A DNA stretch of 44,896 bases from contig CALVIG010000009.1 of the NCBI GenBank assembly GCA_944329425.1, forward strand, positions 1-44,896. Reading direction: 5' to 3'. Origin of the DNA: an uncultured Bacilli bacterium (GTDB taxonomy: Bacteria > Bacillota_I > Bacilli_A > RF39 > UBA660). The translations under genes were made by a program, and so were the position numbers. Under the pieces are notes generated by a model that saw only the letters and a list, made by a program, of their open reading frames with translations, ran no database searches and was not told the DNA's origin. Of this stretch, positions 7,237 through 25,915 are shown piece by piece (the first letter of the stretch is position 1; each line of letters opens with the position of its first letter).

Positions 7237-8097
7237 TTATTTTAAATCACGTATTATGTTTTTTAAATTTAAAGATGCATTATATACGTCTTTTTTACTA
7301 ACGGTTTTATTCTTAGAACTAACTAATCCAATTGCTTCCTTTAAAGTACAATTATTTTTTATCATTTCATCAATGATAAGAGCTTCAATACTTATATTTT
7401 CATTTTCGTTTAACATGGTTCTTTCATTATTAATTAAAACTACATATTCACCTTTTAAAGTATCTAAATTACTAGCTAATTGTTCATAAACTTCTTCTGT
7501 TTTGCCATAAACGTATGATTCATGAACCTTTGTTATTTCAGAGCATACGCATACCACACATCCTGGTATCTCTTTTTTTATGTCTGACAATAACTTTAAA
7601 ATTCTTTTTGGTGATTCATAAACTACTTTGGTCTTAACTGAATCAGTTTTAATGCTATTAAATAATTCTTTTTTAGCTTTATTTTCGGTAGGTACAAACC
7701 CATAAAACGAAAATGATGAAGTATCTAACCCACCAACCGATAAAGCGGTAATTATCGCGCTACAACCTGGTATTCCTATAACCTTTATACCTTCTTGTCT
7801 TGCCCTTTTTACCAAAACATAACCTGGATCTGAAATACATGGTGTACCAGCATCAGATACCAAAGCAATGTTCATGCCATCTTTTAATAATTCTATTACT
7901 TCATTAGTCTTTTTACTTTCATTAAATTTATGATATGAAGCCATCTTGTTTTTTATGTTAAAATGATTAAGTAACTTAATCGTTTGTCTAGTATCTTCCG
8001 CCAATATCAAATCACTATTTTTTAGTGTTTCAACAGCTCTCAAAGAAAAATCTCCTAAGTTACCAATTGGAGTTGCAACAACGTATAACGTTCCCAT
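7237..8097 (-). CDS. rsmI: 16S rRNA (cytidine-1402-2'-O)-methyltransferase
   Basis: 286 residues, the full family length. It uses S-adenosylmethionine to methylate the ribose of C1402 in the 30S decoding centre. Family marks are LYVVATPIGNLGDFSLRA, LAEDTRQT, the loop ALVSDAGTPCISDPGYVLV and GIPGCSAIITALSVGGL of the tetrapyrrole-methylase fold. ATG 8097 has the SD GAGGTGA 5 nt upstream. It follows the CcdA-like gene by 17 bp, in the same minus-strand run. Confidence 0.95.
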   Translation of the reverse strand: MGTLYVVATPIGNLGDFSLRAVETLKNSDLILAEDTRQTIKLLNHFNIKNKMASYHKFNESKKTNEVIELLKDGMNIALVSDAGTPCISDPGYVLVKRARQEGIKVIGIPGCSAIITALSVGGLDTSSFSFYGFVPTENKAKKELFNSIKTDSVKTKVVYESPKRILKLLSDIKKEIPGCVVCVCSEITKVHESYVYGKTEEVYEQLASNLDTLKGEYVVLINNERTMLNENENISIEALIIDEMIKNNCTLKEAIGLVSSKNKTVSKKDVYNASLNLKNIIRDLK

Positions 8098-21389: not shown

Positions 21390-21419
21390 TTGAAAAACAA
21401 TACCCATTTATGTTATAAT
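21390..21419 (+). promoter_or_regulatory. Promoter of tRNA-Trp
   Basis: -35 TTGAAA (21390-21395), 18-bp spacer, -10 TATAAT (21414-21419), 16 bp before the tRNA. Confidence 0.65.
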
Positions 21420-21435
21420 TAACTTGCTTGTATTT

Positions 21436-21509
21436 AGGGGATTAGTTAAATGGTATAATAATGGTCTCCAAAACCACTGTTGGGAGTTCGATTCTCTCAT
21501 CCCCTGCCA
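21436..21509 (+). tRNA. tRNA-Trp (CCA)
   Basis: Acceptor AGGGGAT/ATCCCCT, anticodon loop CTCCAAA with CCA, T-arm GGGAG-TTCGATT-CTCTC, discriminator G and encoded CCA (21507-21509). Its 3' 45 bases recur at 25299-25343, so this tRNA is the integration site of the island that follows. Confidence 0.96.
21465..21509 (+). repeat. attL: tRNA-Trp 3' end
   Basis: 45-bp direct repeat partner of 25299-25343; one mismatch (C 21501, T 25335). It keeps the tRNA functional. Confidence 0.8.
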
Positions 21510-21535
21510 AGAAAATCAAAGGATTTAGAGTACTT

Positions 21536-22129
21536 CTAAATCTTTTTTTCTTTATCTAAATCGTTATTTTTTATCACTCGTATGGCTTGATTGAAGTCAT
21601 TGTTTCTTAAGCTTTCTACATATTTATGATATTCATTTGGAATATAACCATCCATACTTAAATATTTGTTATCATACCAATTTGGAAATAATCTTATAGA
21701 TTCCTCATATAGTTTTTCTAATTCTATTTCATCAATATTATTTCTAATATTTCTCATTAAATACCCGCCTATTACATGAATAATAAATAAATATTCTAAT
21801 TCATCCTTATGTAATTCATATTTATTAATACTCTTACAATAATCAATTATATTATTAACTGCCTTTATAGTATCTTCTTGATTCGTATTATATTGATGAA
21901 TTAACGAGTTTTTTCTTTGTGTATAATAATACAAACATTCATTAATATAGCTAAATTTCATATCATTATATATTAATAGTTTGCTATAAAACTCTAGATC
22001 TTCACATATTTTTAAATTTGAAAATCTTATATTTGATTTATCAAGTATAATTTTATTAATCAGTCTTTTATATGTTGCTATTCCCCTAAATGTTTCAACA
22101 TATTCTTTTTGATTTAATGTATCCTTATA
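21536..22129 (-). pseudogene. C-terminal remnant of a family 2 glycosyltransferase
   Basis: The frame is open from just after TAA 22130-22132 to the stop at 21536. Upstream of the only internal ATG (21961) it still reads as glycosyltransferase: EYVETFRGIATYKRLINKII, then FSNLKICEDLEFYSKLLIY, where CEDLEF is the conserved ED motif near the GT2 catalytic base. INECLYYYTQRKNSLIH, a typical GT2 tail, follows. The nucleotide-sugar binding N-terminal half and start codon are gone, so it is a remnant inside the tRNA-Trp island, without likely activity. Confidence 0.75.
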
Positions 22130-22134
22130 TTAAA

Positions 22135-22163
22135 AAAATCAAAATAAAGTTTATTTTGATTTT
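22135..22163 (-). terminator. Terminator of the island histidine phosphatase
   Basis: 14-bp inverted repeat (22135-22148 with 22150-22163), centre folding as a small loop, followed by T-rich DNA on the minus strand; it overlaps the gene's stop. Confidence 0.7.
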
Positions 22164-22768
22164 ATGCTTTCTATACTTACTAAATTATTATTATCACTAA
22201 ATTCTAATTTAAATATTTCACAATAATTCCATTTTCCATTAAAAAATGTTTTTCCATTAAATTTGTATTCTGAGTCATAACTAACTTCACACCATTTAGA
22301 AAACAACGCCATCATAGCTGTAGAATGACATACTATAACAATTCTCTTATCTCTATTAGTATTAATTATATTTATTAATGATTCATATAATCTATCTCTA
22401 ACTTCTGATAAAGATTCTCCTTTTGGTAGTTTATAATCAAAATCATTAAACTGCTTGATTTCAAAGTTTTCAGGATACTCATCCCATGAAGTAATACCAA
22501 TTTTTCTTTCTCCTAAATCTTCATCTATAACCATATCTAAATTGTTTTTATCTGCAATATATTTCGCAGTTGATATAGTCCTTATATAATTAGAAGAATA
22601 TACTTTATCAATATCATCAAATTCACTATTCATACTAACTTCTTGAGCAAGTTTTTCCCCATCAACAGTTAATATCTTCTTTTCATTTTGTAATTGTAAA
22701 GAATCACTATTTTTTAAATATGTATGTTTCATTGGTTTTGAATGTCTAATAAAATAAATTGTTGTCAT
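22151..22768 (-). CDS. Histidine phosphatase superfamily protein (island)
   Basis: 205 residues. Catalytic His in YFIRHSKP (RHS in place of RHG), SSNYIRTISTAKYIA, an acidic Glu in LGERKIG and the second His in VIVCHSTAMM match the phosphoglycerate mutase-like phosphatases. Substrate unknown; small phosphate esters are usual. ATG 22768 has the SD AAAGGT. It is 15 bp past the Zn-phospholipase-like gene on the same strand and likely in one transcript with it. A second, diverged member lies just outside the island at 25379. Confidence 0.85.
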   Translation of the reverse strand: MTTIYFIRHSKPMKHTYLKNSDSLQLQNEKKILTVDGEKLAQEVSMNSEFDDIDKVYSSNYIRTISTAKYIADKNNLDMVIDEDLGERKIGITSWDEYPENFEIKQFNDFDYKLPKGESLSEVRDRLYESLINIINTNRDKRIVIVCHSTAMMALFSKWCEVSYDSEYKFNGKTFFNGKWNYCEIFKLEFSDNNNLVSIESIKSK

Positions 22769-22783
22769 AATGGTTACCTTTCT

Positions 22784-23443
22784 TCATTTTATATTTTTAA
22801 TATATTCAAGAATATAATCTATACATAAATAAAACTGCCTATCCAATTCTTTTTTAGATGTTAATTTAAAATTATATAATCTTAACTTACTAAAAACATT
22901 TAATTTATATATGTCATTATTTGCTTCTTTAATATAATCTTTCAATGAATTTTTATCATATTTAGCAACTTCTAAATCCACCACATTATCTACACATTTA
23001 TAATCACTAAACTTTGGAACATAACCATGATTAAGCAACCACTTATCATATAATCCAAATTCTCGTTGTTTATAATATTTTACTTTTTCAGGCGGTAATA
23101 ATTTATCTTTATGTTTAAAATGTAATCCTGCATCATTACCATCTTTATCATAAATAAACCATTTAGTAAAAGCATAAGTATTATAAAATTTATCAGTTAA
23201 TATATGTATTAGATATCCCATCATAACAGGATTGTTTAAATCTTTCTTATGTTTTTTGATAAACAAATCAGGATTAGCAGTTCCATCTACTCCTAGTTTT
23301 CCATTTTGGTAATGGCTAACTGTATGATTTCTTCCTATACAAACATCAGGCATAATACTACCAAGCATAACACTATCAAGATCTAGTTTTAAAACATTGT
23401 TTACTTTTTTTGCTATTGCCATGTGAATTTTATGTGAAGGCAT
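22784..23443 (-). CDS. Zinc-dependent phospholipase C-like protein
   Basis: 219 residues. The opening MPSHKIHMAIAKKV, then LGSIMPDVCIGRNHTVSHY, and the helix GYLIHILTDKFYN carry the His/Asp pattern of the PF00882-type zinc phospholipase C or related metal hydrolase fold. There is no signal peptide, unlike secreted phospholipases, so it is probably cytosolic with an unknown substrate. ATG 23443 follows AAGGAGTGAT; the GTG at 23452 is part of that SD. Confidence 0.75.
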   Translation of the reverse strand: MPSHKIHMAIAKKVNNVLKLDLDSVMLGSIMPDVCIGRNHTVSHYQNGKLGVDGTANPDLFIKKHKKDLNNPVMMGYLIHILTDKFYNTYAFTKWFIYDKDGNDAGLHFKHKDKLLPPEKVKYYKQREFGLYDKWLLNHGYVPKFSDYKCVDNVVDLEVAKYDKNSLKDYIKEANNDIYKLNVFSKLRLYNFKLTSKKELDRQFYLCIDYILEYIKNIK

Positions 23444-23479
23444 AAGTATCACTCCTTATAATTATTCAATAGTTGATTT

Positions 23480-24829
23480 TTACATTTTCTTTGAACCTAT
23501 TTCTTCATCCATATAATAAGCTGAAGCAAAATAATCGGTTACCAATTTTTTGTTATTCTCATTTTTAAATAATTCAGATAATATATCATCAGAATATTTA
23601 TAGTTATATTTTTTTAGACTATTTGCTATTTGATTAACATCAACTGGAATATTATTTGTAACATATGATTCAATAGAATACATTATTTGCGAAAAAACAT
23701 CCTTTGCATTTTCATTAAATGCATATTTTAAATCTTCATCAGTTATTGTATTTGTTTGGATTATATTTGACGGTCTATTTTTTCTAGTAGCTTGAATCCA
23801 TAAAAATAACATTCTATATTGATCTATTATTCTTTTATCATTTATTACTTGATTCGTAGCTCTATCGACCATTATTTTATTTCCATTTTCATCTTTTGTA
23901 AAAATATAACTTCTCATATCTTCATATTTTTTTCTTAAACCATCTAAATTATAATCACTATCAAAATGGTTTTCAGTATCATCATTATTCATTCTATTAT
24001 ACTCATCTACTATCTCTGGTCTTTTAATTAATTCAACTCCAAGACTATTTTTTACAAAATTAGATATAAATCCGACATGTGAGCGTAATTTTTCATTTAT
24101 TTGCATTTTTTCTTGTTCTGTAAGTTTATCATTATTTTTCAGTTCTTTTTCTAAATCATGAATTATAGACAGTATTTCAGCAAAGTCAGAGAACTTATTA
24201 TTAAATAGCATATTAAACTTATCTTCAAACGATGTGTTATTATTGCAAAATTGATTCAACAATTCTTTTCTACCAATAAAAGGAGTAATAGTTCTTATAA
24301 TAGTTTTTATTAAATAATAACTATCAGTTTCTTTATCTACTACATAACCATTAATTTCTTCTGCAACAATTTGAGTACATGCTTCATCAAATGCTGTAAA
24401 AACATCTCTTTCATCTATATTATGATTTTCATTTCTTTCTTGTTGAGTTATGATCTTATGTCCAAATTTATATTGTTGTCCATTTTGCTTTCTTACCATA
24501 GCATGTATTATTTCATGTGTTAGTTGGCATTTAGTAAGTTCAGGGCTACTCTGTTCATTTAGAAAAACTTTATCAACATATATTTCATTTCTATTTGAAA
24601 AAGGCCAACATACCATTCTTGATTCATGAATTTCTTTTACTGGAGCAATATATATATTTGTTGGTACAAGAAGATTTTGCTCTATACTACTATTAATACA
24701 TCCATTATTTATAAAGTATTCTCTAATACTATGTTTCATATTATTTACTAGTTCATCAGAATCTTTCATTCCAGTTCTTTGAGCAACAAGTAAATCATAT
24801 TCAATTCTTATTTTTTTAATATCAATCAA
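23480..24829 (-). CDS. HExxH metallopeptidase-like protein
   Basis: 449 residues from the TTG at 24829, which is 8 nt past the SD AGGAG; the GTG at 24838 lies inside the SD. LTHEIIHAM gives a zinc motif HEIIH (105-109), and Glu149 in FDEACTQIVAEEI is placed as the third ligand of a gluzincin. The rest is helical and charged with no family I recognise. No signal peptide, so a cytosolic peptidase or a zinc-fold protein with another role. First gene of the island's minus-strand run, 36 bp before the phospholipase-like gene. Confidence 0.65.
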   Translation of the reverse strand: MIDIKKIRIEYDLLVAQRTGMKDSDELVNNMKHSIREYFINNGCINSSIEQNLLVPTNIYIAPVKEIHESRMVCWPFSNRNEIYVDKVFLNEQSSPELTKCQLTHEIIHAMVRKQNGQQYKFGHKIITQQERNENHNIDERDVFTAFDEACTQIVAEEINGYVVDKETDSYYLIKTIIRTITPFIGRKELLNQFCNNNTSFEDKFNMLFNNKFSDFAEILSIIHDLEKELKNNDKLTEQEKMQINEKLRSHVGFISNFVKNSLGVELIKRPEIVDEYNRMNNDDTENHFDSDYNLDGLRKKYEDMRSYIFTKDENGNKIMVDRATNQVINDKRIIDQYRMLFLWIQATRKNRPSNIIQTNTITDEDLKYAFNENAKDVFSQIMYSIESYVTNNIPVDVNQIANSLKKYNYKYSDDILSELFKNENNKKLVTDYFASAYYMDEEIGSKKM

Positions 24830-24973
24830 TTTATTCACTCCTACTTTCCCATTCTTATTATAATTTTAACACATTTTACACTTTCATTATAAAACATGTT
24901 GTTAATTTGACAAATTACGACAAAATATTTGACACTTTTGTGTTATCATATCCAGCTCGTAAAGGGGGATTTT

Positions 24974-25126
24974 ATGAAATATTTAAATAGAATTGAAATA
25001 ATAAAGTTTACTAAAAAATATTTTCCTAATTATCTAGGAGATATTAGACCAGTATCTTATTTTGACTATAATAGTAAAATAGAATATTTAATAAATAATC
25101 ATTATTTATTTATAGTTATTTTTTAG
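24974..25126 (+). CDS. Short ORF at the island end, possibly truncated
   Basis: 50 residues (MKYLNRIEIIKFTKKYFPNY at the start). A strong SD, AAAGGGGGA, precedes ATG 24974, which is why I accept the start. The final residues are hydrophobic and unlike the rest, so the gene may have been cut near 25120 when the island decayed. No function recognised. Confidence 0.4.
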   Translation: MKYLNRIEIIKFTKKYFPNYLGDIRPVSYFDYNSKIEYLINNHYLFIVIF

Positions 25127-25173
25127 AATACCAGTGGTCTGAAAAACTAATGTTGTCATTTTTGAGCTGAACT

Positions 25174-25191
25174 GGTGGCTTTTTTGGTGGC
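25174..25191 (+). repeat. Paired GGTGGC boxes near attR
   Basis: Two GGTGGC copies (25174-25179, 25186-25191), 12 bp apart, 108 bp before attR. Spacing near one helical turn fits integrase arm-type sites. The rest of 25127-25298 shows no coding potential. Confidence 0.4.
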
Positions 25192-25298
25192 AAAAATACT
25201 CATTTCAAACGAATTATATCATATTATATCGAACACTCGAAAGTTCGTTTTCCTTTATTTTGAGCCGTTTTTGTTTGTTTTAGTTCGCTATCTCAGAT

Positions 25299-25343
25299 TC
25301 TCCAAAACCACTGTTGGGAGTTCGATTCTCTCATTCCCTGCCA
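25299..25343 (+). repeat. attR: copy of the tRNA-Trp 3' end
   Basis: Matches 21465-21509 in 44 of 45 bases, from the anticodon loop through CCA, without the tRNA 5' half. Not a functional tRNA. Confidence 0.85.
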
Positions 25344-25352
25344 TATAAAAAT

Positions 25353-25375
25353 AAAACGGCTTAGAAAGTCGTTTT
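25353..25375 (-). terminator. Terminator of the second histidine phosphatase
   Basis: 10-bp stem with one G-T pair (25353-25362 with 25366-25375) and A/T tracts on both sides, just past the stop at 25379. Confidence 0.75.
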
Positions 25376-25378
25376 TTA

Positions 25379-25915
25379 TTATATATTAAATTCATACAGT
25401 GTTGCATTTTCTGGTCTAAAAGAAGTAAAATTAGTATTTTTATCATAACCATTTATATTATAATATAACGCTTTTATAAAGGCAAAATGTGATACTATTA
25501 AAATATTTTTATTAGGATATTGTTTTTTTATTTTATCTAAAAATATCTTTGCTCTATCTAAACAATCTTTAATACTTTCTATACCATTATGGGAATCATT
25601 TAACCTATAATCCCAATGTTTGCCAATTAATTCAAAATTTATTTTTTTACCTTCATAATTACCAAAACCCCTTTCCTTAAGCAAATCATCATATATAATT
25701 TTCAATTTATTTCCTACCAATATTTCAGCGGTTTGCTTAGCTCTTATTAATGGAGATGAAATACATACATCTATCTTACTTAAATCAAGTTTTGAAGCTA
25801 ATTCTTGTGCTTGCTTAATCCCTTCTTCATTAAGAGAAATATCATTAGATCCCTGAAGAAGGCCTTTTTCGTTCCATTCAGTTTTTCCATGGCGTACAAT
25901 ATATAATTTACTCAT
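25379..25915 (-). CDS. Histidine phosphatase (phosphoglycerate mutase-like)
   Basis: 178 residues. LYIVRHGKTEWNEKGLLQG with the phospho-accepting His, SSPLIRAKQTAEI, KERGFGNYEG and VSHFAFIKAL give all core motifs of the CobC/GpmB branch. It removes phosphate from small metabolites; the substrate is not evident. ATG 25915 follows GGAGGT; the ATG at 25927 is upstream of that SD. It lies just outside attR, so it is probably a core gene. Confidence 0.88.
   Translation of the reverse strand: MSKLYIVRHGKTEWNEKGLLQGSNDISLNEEGIKQAQELASKLDLSKIDVCISSPLIRAKQTAEILVGNKLKIIYDDLLKERGFGNYEGKKINFELIGKHWDYRLNDSHNGIESIKDCLDRAKIFLDKIKKQYPNKNILIVSHFAFIKALYYNINGYDKNTNFTSFRPENATLYEFNI

Follow-up and report, generated by a model that had tools for sequence, protein, structure and literature searches.

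The 3.8-kb interval enclosed by a repeat pair at the tRNA-Trp gene of the window (the whole stretch of DNA analyzed here, 44,896 nucleotides) is very probably a decayed, integrase-less integrative island, a remnant resembling a CIME (cis-mobilizable element) at a hot spot of tandem accretion. We favor this reading of a remnant shaped by deletion because the repeat, a homologous integrase arm, the hot spot, a truncated gene, and the missing integrase all point to it. The window corresponds to contig 9 of a genome (G000) that totals 1.11 Mb over 18 contigs, which we compared with 17 other species of the genus, each represented by one genome of draft MAG contigs. The features of the interval are as follows.

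21436-21509, forward strand: tRNA-Trp (CCA), intact gene and left attachment site (ARAGORN)
21466-21472, forward strand: crossover core CTCCAAA, the seven-base anticodon loop (from the half copies in G005 and G008 and the G001/G005 junction)
21536-22129, reverse strand: glycosyltransferase C-terminal fragment, N-terminal half missing (aligns to the C-terminal half of full-length relatives)
22151-22768, reverse strand: histidine-phosphatase family protein, cargo (PF00300, His_Phos_1, 1.1e-22)
22784-23452, reverse strand: zinc-dependent phospholipase C-like protein, cargo; a weak assignment (PF00882)
23480-24838, reverse strand: HExxH protein with a predicted metallopeptidase domain and a second domain, cargo (conserved motif)
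24929-25126, forward strand: short ORF of 65 aa at most, where the integrase gene would be expected (position relative to G042/L097)
25102-25299, forward strand: putative right arm of a GGTGGC-type integrative element, boxes at 25174-25179 and 25186-25191 (homology to the L102 arm)
25299-25343, forward strand: displaced tRNA-Trp 3' end (attR), core at 25300-25306 (44/45 repeat)

The ARAGORN call and the repeat alignment agree with the original prediction of 45-bp attachment repeats at tRNA-Trp. The direct repeat joins 21465-21509 to 25299-25343 with 44/45 identical positions and a start-to-start spacing of 3834; about 8e-13 such pairs would be expected in the window by chance. Its sole mismatch is a C to T change at tRNA position 66 in the displaced copy, by which one G-C pair of the acceptor becomes G-U. 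By itself, the displaced copy gives no tRNA call, and the joined flanks are called as a tRNA-Trp with the G-U pair in the acceptor stem. The tRNA-Trp gene of the window is intact and has kept its native upstream region, and its sequence is 100% identical in the 11 genomes of the genus in which it is whole. Because BLAST with the tRNA region as query returned no second full copy from the genome (assembly 95.8% complete), the gene at 21436-21509 seems to be the only tRNA-Trp gene present.

Next to the displaced end, the GGTGGC boxes at 25174-25191 match GTGGCNNTTTTGGTGGCA exactly, as nothing else in the window does, and are the sole match within 2 mismatches in the genome. They had been proposed as integrase arm sites, and they indeed lie in DNA homologous to the arm that runs from integrase to tRNA-Trp in other Bacilli, which makes them good candidates for that role. 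The alignment of 25102-25261 with the integrase-adjacent arm of L102, which is the same contig as G042 and comes from the family of the window, scored 121, against 22 ± 2.9 (maximum 39) for shuffled sequences. L100 scored 116, and L101 and L103 scored 44 and 40, surpassing the shuffled maxima only modestly. In L100 and L102, the homologous arm has the gene for a tyrosine integrase of 525-531 aa on one side and the same tRNA-Trp end on the other. The four named records that bear the arm are MAGs of presumed Bacilli or Erysipelotrichaceae hosts. Because of this arm homology, we consider 25102-25343 to be the likely right end of a GGTGGC-type (type two) element, whose integrase gene would have been deleted in place.

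The left end begins with the truncated glycosyltransferase and no matching arm, and the search for a GGTGGC box there gave at best 12/18 matching positions, which is the level of shuffled sequence. Because the left end is without arm boxes, the repeat pair does not enclose a single complete element, and the island is a rearranged composite rather than one tidy element. This is also a point against the remnant reading, in that the repeat pair need not bound a single element. A scan of viral contigs for the combination of arm and tRNA found nothing.

Type-two elements share a common layout, in which boxes like ACTGGTGGCACTTTTGGTGGCAAAA come after a 410-531 aa integrase and the tRNA-Trp 3' end lies about 108 bases farther along (L097/L102, L100, and L101). 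G400 contains a complete element of this type, 35.5 kb long, between the halves of tRNA-Trp. Because it encodes an integrase, a MobL relaxase, a T4SS coupling protein, a TraG/TraC-like ATPase, and TrbL, the G400 element is, by predicted gene content, ICE-like. At the left ends in G399 and G400, the split host tRNA is accompanied by an arm of the GGTGGC or a GGTGGC-like kind and by a complete tRNA-Trp that differs in sequence; at these loci (L106, L107, L110, and L111), the element carries its own complete tRNA-Trp and the host copy is split. On the 4981 bp contig of L097/L102, the integrase, boxes, and tRNA-Trp 3' end are followed by more boxes on the other side, so the contig represents either a junction between two elements in tandem or the attP of an element that has not integrated.

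As had been noted from the sequence, the 3.8 kb holds no integrase: no recombinase was found among the ORFs between the repeat copies. The predicted truncated ORF is there as well, at 24929-25126; it encodes at most 65 aa, or 50 aa if the ATG at 24974 is used, and has no Pfam match. In a genus-wide PF00589 search, the only two matches of this genome lay on other contigs. Both are tyrosine recombinases of about 300-320 aa, with the size and score of the pair found in most of the genus. The original prediction held that the integrase is either lost or supplied in trans. Loss is favored, the arm having been kept without an integrase, and supply in trans gained no support, only two genus-typical tyrosine recombinases being found in the 95.8%-complete assembly. 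A sister island in G336 (L094:5050-9868) likewise lacks an integrase, and the two copies of its 45/45 repeat lie 4.76 kb from each other. Its junction joins the region upstream of an integrase to an inverted repeat at the 9-nt AGTCAAAAA, which is present at both parent sites in G260; the G336 island thus shows integrase loss by deletion at a 9-nt microhomology.

The recurrence of repeat-paired islands without an integrase, as in G336, could also be taken to mean that such islands are mobile, true CIMEs or hitchhikers that an integrase supplied in trans excises and relocates. Both CTCCAAA cores of the window are intact, and excision need not kill the cell, since the joined flanks are called as tRNA-Trp. 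However, the left end lacks the boxes to which an arm-binding integrase would have to attach, no tyrosine recombinase exists in the genome beyond the two of about 300-320 aa that belong to a genus-wide size class, the displaced end is mutated, and one island gene is broken. We therefore regard a mobile island as unlikely.

The genes between the repeats largely bear out the first reading of the sequence. The glycosyltransferase is really truncated: 21536-22129 aligns solely from about residue 128-152 (to ~312) of 303-331 aa proteins in the genus, that is, to their C-terminal half alone, and the N termini of these full-length relatives read like GT2 enzymes. The 197-aa fragment itself had no Pfam match, and a PDB sequence search returned a chance-level match only. 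The phosphatase is confirmed by its Pfam match to His_Phos_1 (1.1e-22), and its relatives are 48-50% identical in G008, G010, and G015 at the same locus and 62% identical in G003 elsewhere. For the Zn-phospholipase-like protein, a PF00882 match exists, but it is weak (1.8e-4; 21.9 bits, under the curated cut-off of 26.8); relatives in G002, G006, and G015 are 71-84% identical.

The HExxH protein had zero matches in Pfam, PDB (sequence search), PADLOC, and NCBIfam. Its motif, formed by H108, E109, and H112, is conserved in its relatives, and the motif together with a downstream EAxTQ is invariant in three relatives of the window protein. The motif is zincin-like. In G008, the two domains of the protein occur in the opposite order. 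HExxH proteins whose partner domain has been swapped or replaced are encoded at 23480-24838 of the window, L034:8327-9661, and L035:5810-7684, the partner domain in L035 being HopA1-like (PF17914). A single-sequence structure prediction of the window protein was set aside with a mean pLDDT of 41.7. In PADLOC, the cargo of the window had no credible defense match, the only one being 0.0016 for the phosphatase, and phage records searched with 21400-25400 gave no match.

The surroundings of the tRNA-Trp gene in relatives suggest where these genes came from. The flanks are common to the species, with a CmpB family gene upstream of the tRNA and a DUF4153 gene beyond the island, and the content between them varies from species to species. 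Relatives of the phosphatase, phospholipase-like, and HExxH genes occur at the same locus both inside inverted-repeat (IR-type) elements (G006 and G008) and without visible repeats (G010 and G015). Likewise, a PGM gene lies outside the repeat in the window and inside the repeat pairs in G001 and G005. Because the cargo is found inside IR-type elements in some species and without repeats in others, and because the placement of PGM varies, the cargo genes look like a pool shuffled at the tRNA-Trp site. G010 and G015 also offer a counterpoint to the remnant reading, as the cargo genes may be older residents beside which an insertion merely took place.

An exact displaced tRNA-Trp end is found in only 7/386 genomes of the family, which disfavors an old conserved duplication. 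Nor do all relatives hold the same genes between the copies, as the varying content shows. It is conceivable that segmental duplication or homologous recombination copied the tRNA-Trp 3' end without an integrase and left unrelated genes in between. Only the 3' part of the tRNA was copied, and G010 and G015 hold cargo genes at the locus without repeats, both as a duplication would allow. However, the copy begins one base before the core used by two integrase types, an integrase arm adjoins it, and exact displaced ends are rare and enclose content that varies by species, so that we consider an origin by duplication very improbable.

Integration itself can be read from occupied and unoccupied sites. 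The host tRNA of G005 and G008 is divided: nt 1-37 stand alone, followed by 65 bases and a complete tRNA-Trp, and the far end carries nt 31-74. The 5'-half copies end at CTCCAAA and the 3'-half copies start there. Between G001 (unoccupied) and G005 (occupied), 540/593 positions are identical upstream through nucleotide 37 and 3696/3803 from the core onward, which places the insertion exactly at CTCCAAA. The proposed check for an empty tRNA-Trp site thus yielded the G001/G005 pair but no empty site for the window's own element; the proposed check for a longer form, with an integrase inside the repeat pair, succeeded at the same tRNA-Trp in G005, G008, G260, and G309. In G006, an integrase adjoins tRNA-Trp and the contig ends before any distal repeat. 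Because a second end, in a more advanced state of decay (90%), survives farther out in G005, elements have accumulated there in tandem. From these comparisons, the tRNA-Trp anticodon loop is an active integration hot spot for two types of tyrosine-integrase element.

G011 was dropped as an empty site, since degenerate boxes downstream mean that it may be an old left end; the sequence after its tRNA resembles that after the displaced end of the window. At another locus, L098 (G003:C82), the contig starts at the tRNA-Trp 3' end and encodes an apparent DNA methyltransferase and a protein of 629 aa whose N terminus suggests a serine recombinase; a third kind of element may use the tRNA-Trp region.

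IR-type (type one) elements encode a ~344-aa tyrosine integrase that resembles XerC/XerD and integron-type models. The integrase lies next to tRNA-Trp in G005, G006, G008, G260, G272 (where its reading frame is interrupted), and G309. An inverted, truncated tRNA-Trp copy stands beside it, and the cargo is bounded by ~280-bp inverted repeats ending in CTCCAAA. At L033:1798-3660, L034, L039, L083, L084, and L095, a complete tRNA-Trp lies on one side of the integrase and the inverted truncated copy (nt 1-58) on the other. The 65-nt leader in G005 and G008 is the same in both copies within an element and differs between elements, and a circular form would carry two attP sites in opposite orientation. 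PADLOC matches in the cargo comprise a ThsB-like TIR (1.3e-15), PDC-S06 (2.4e-37), and AbiL (4.5e-95); with these matches, L033, L034, and L095 mark a landing site for defense genes. The inverted repeats at L033:3400-3640 and 7400-7650 include, amid AT-rich DNA, a GC-rich hairpin that is conserved (CGGGCTTCGCCCG) and the sequence GGTGTGGGGAAAGCGGTTCTTTT, which may serve as an origin or a nick site.

Since IR-type elements in G006 and G008 contain relatives of the histidine-phosphatase, phospholipase-like, and HExxH genes, the island might be a deletion derivative of an IR-type element, sharing its cargo families. However, a search of the window for IR-type ends found none of the ~280-bp inverted repeats that flank such cargo, and the right arm of the window matches the GGTGGC type, which leaves this derivation with hardly any likelihood.

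For a decayed type-two remnant, the course of events may be pictured as follows. A tyrosine integrase with GGTGGC arms would have integrated an element at the anticodon loop of the genome's one tRNA-Trp gene, displacing the host 3' tRNA end to 25299-25343, beside the right arm of the element. Later deletions would have taken out the integrase gene and the left arm and truncated the glycosyltransferase, and the phosphatase, phospholipase-like, and HExxH genes would have been drawn from the pool shuffled at the site. We infer an ICE-like parent and in-place deletion of its integrase, and the island would now be immobile or be moved only via a second element acting at the cores. A wider scheme, to which we give slightly less than even credence, is that in these small-genome Bacilli two distinct tyrosine-integrase types target the anticodon loop of the sole tRNA-Trp gene: ICE-like elements with GGTGGC arms and small defense-cargo elements whose integrase is Xer-like and whose inverted attachment sites come in pairs. 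Both would include members that split the essential tRNA and supply a complete replacement, making them hard to lose, and the window would hold a remnant.

The island of the window is therefore a further example of integrative-element decay, an ordinary remnant at a site that is a busy landing pad. The locus adds an occupied/unoccupied pair and a case of integrase loss with a visible deletion junction. Decay to integrase-less elements, accretion, and tRNA-splitting phages have already been described (PMC5704250, PMC3146451, PMC10865867). The replacement-tRNA elements of the relatives are, judging from their sequences, a variant in non-phage elements; if true, non-phage elements that replace a split essential tRNA would extend tRNA-dependent integration beyond phages. 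In the library searched, we found no paper on replacement-tRNA non-phage elements, though one may exist elsewhere, and none on tRNA-Trp anticodon-loop integrases.

In tRNA-dependent lysogeny, phages split a tRNA and bring their own (PMC10865867, in which an L. johnsonii prophage is cited as well). Only G005, G008, G399, and G400 resemble this, with a short core, a split host tRNA, and an element-borne cognate tRNA. The carrier in G400 is ICE-like, however, and that in G005 and G008 is a small cargo element, none of them a phage, whereas the tRNA-Trp of the window is intact rather than split and replaced. Like the island of the window, those catalogued by Islander (PMC4383910) run from an intact tRNA to a displaced 3' fragment, but the island of the window has no integrase gene. 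Some Dehalococcoides ssrA islands are without an integration module, and tandem repeats of the RNA gene end serve as their boundaries (PMC3146451). They are like the window in being integrase-less islands at one RNA gene bordered by end repeats, and they differ in using a serine recombinase and a tmRNA site. As characterized in PMC5704250 (citing Pavlovic et al. 2004), a CIME is a decayed element with tRNA-derived repeats that has lost its integration and transfer genes and takes part in tandem accretion. Compared with that account, the window is without a left arm, its host, tRNA, and integrase differ, and its mobility in cis would be hypothetical. It nonetheless matches the CIMEs treated there in its end repeats (att-derived at both ends, with both CTCCAAA cores intact), in its gene loss (Pfam, PADLOC, and NCBIfam scans of the island ORFs returned no integration or transfer genes), and in its place at a site of tandem insertion.
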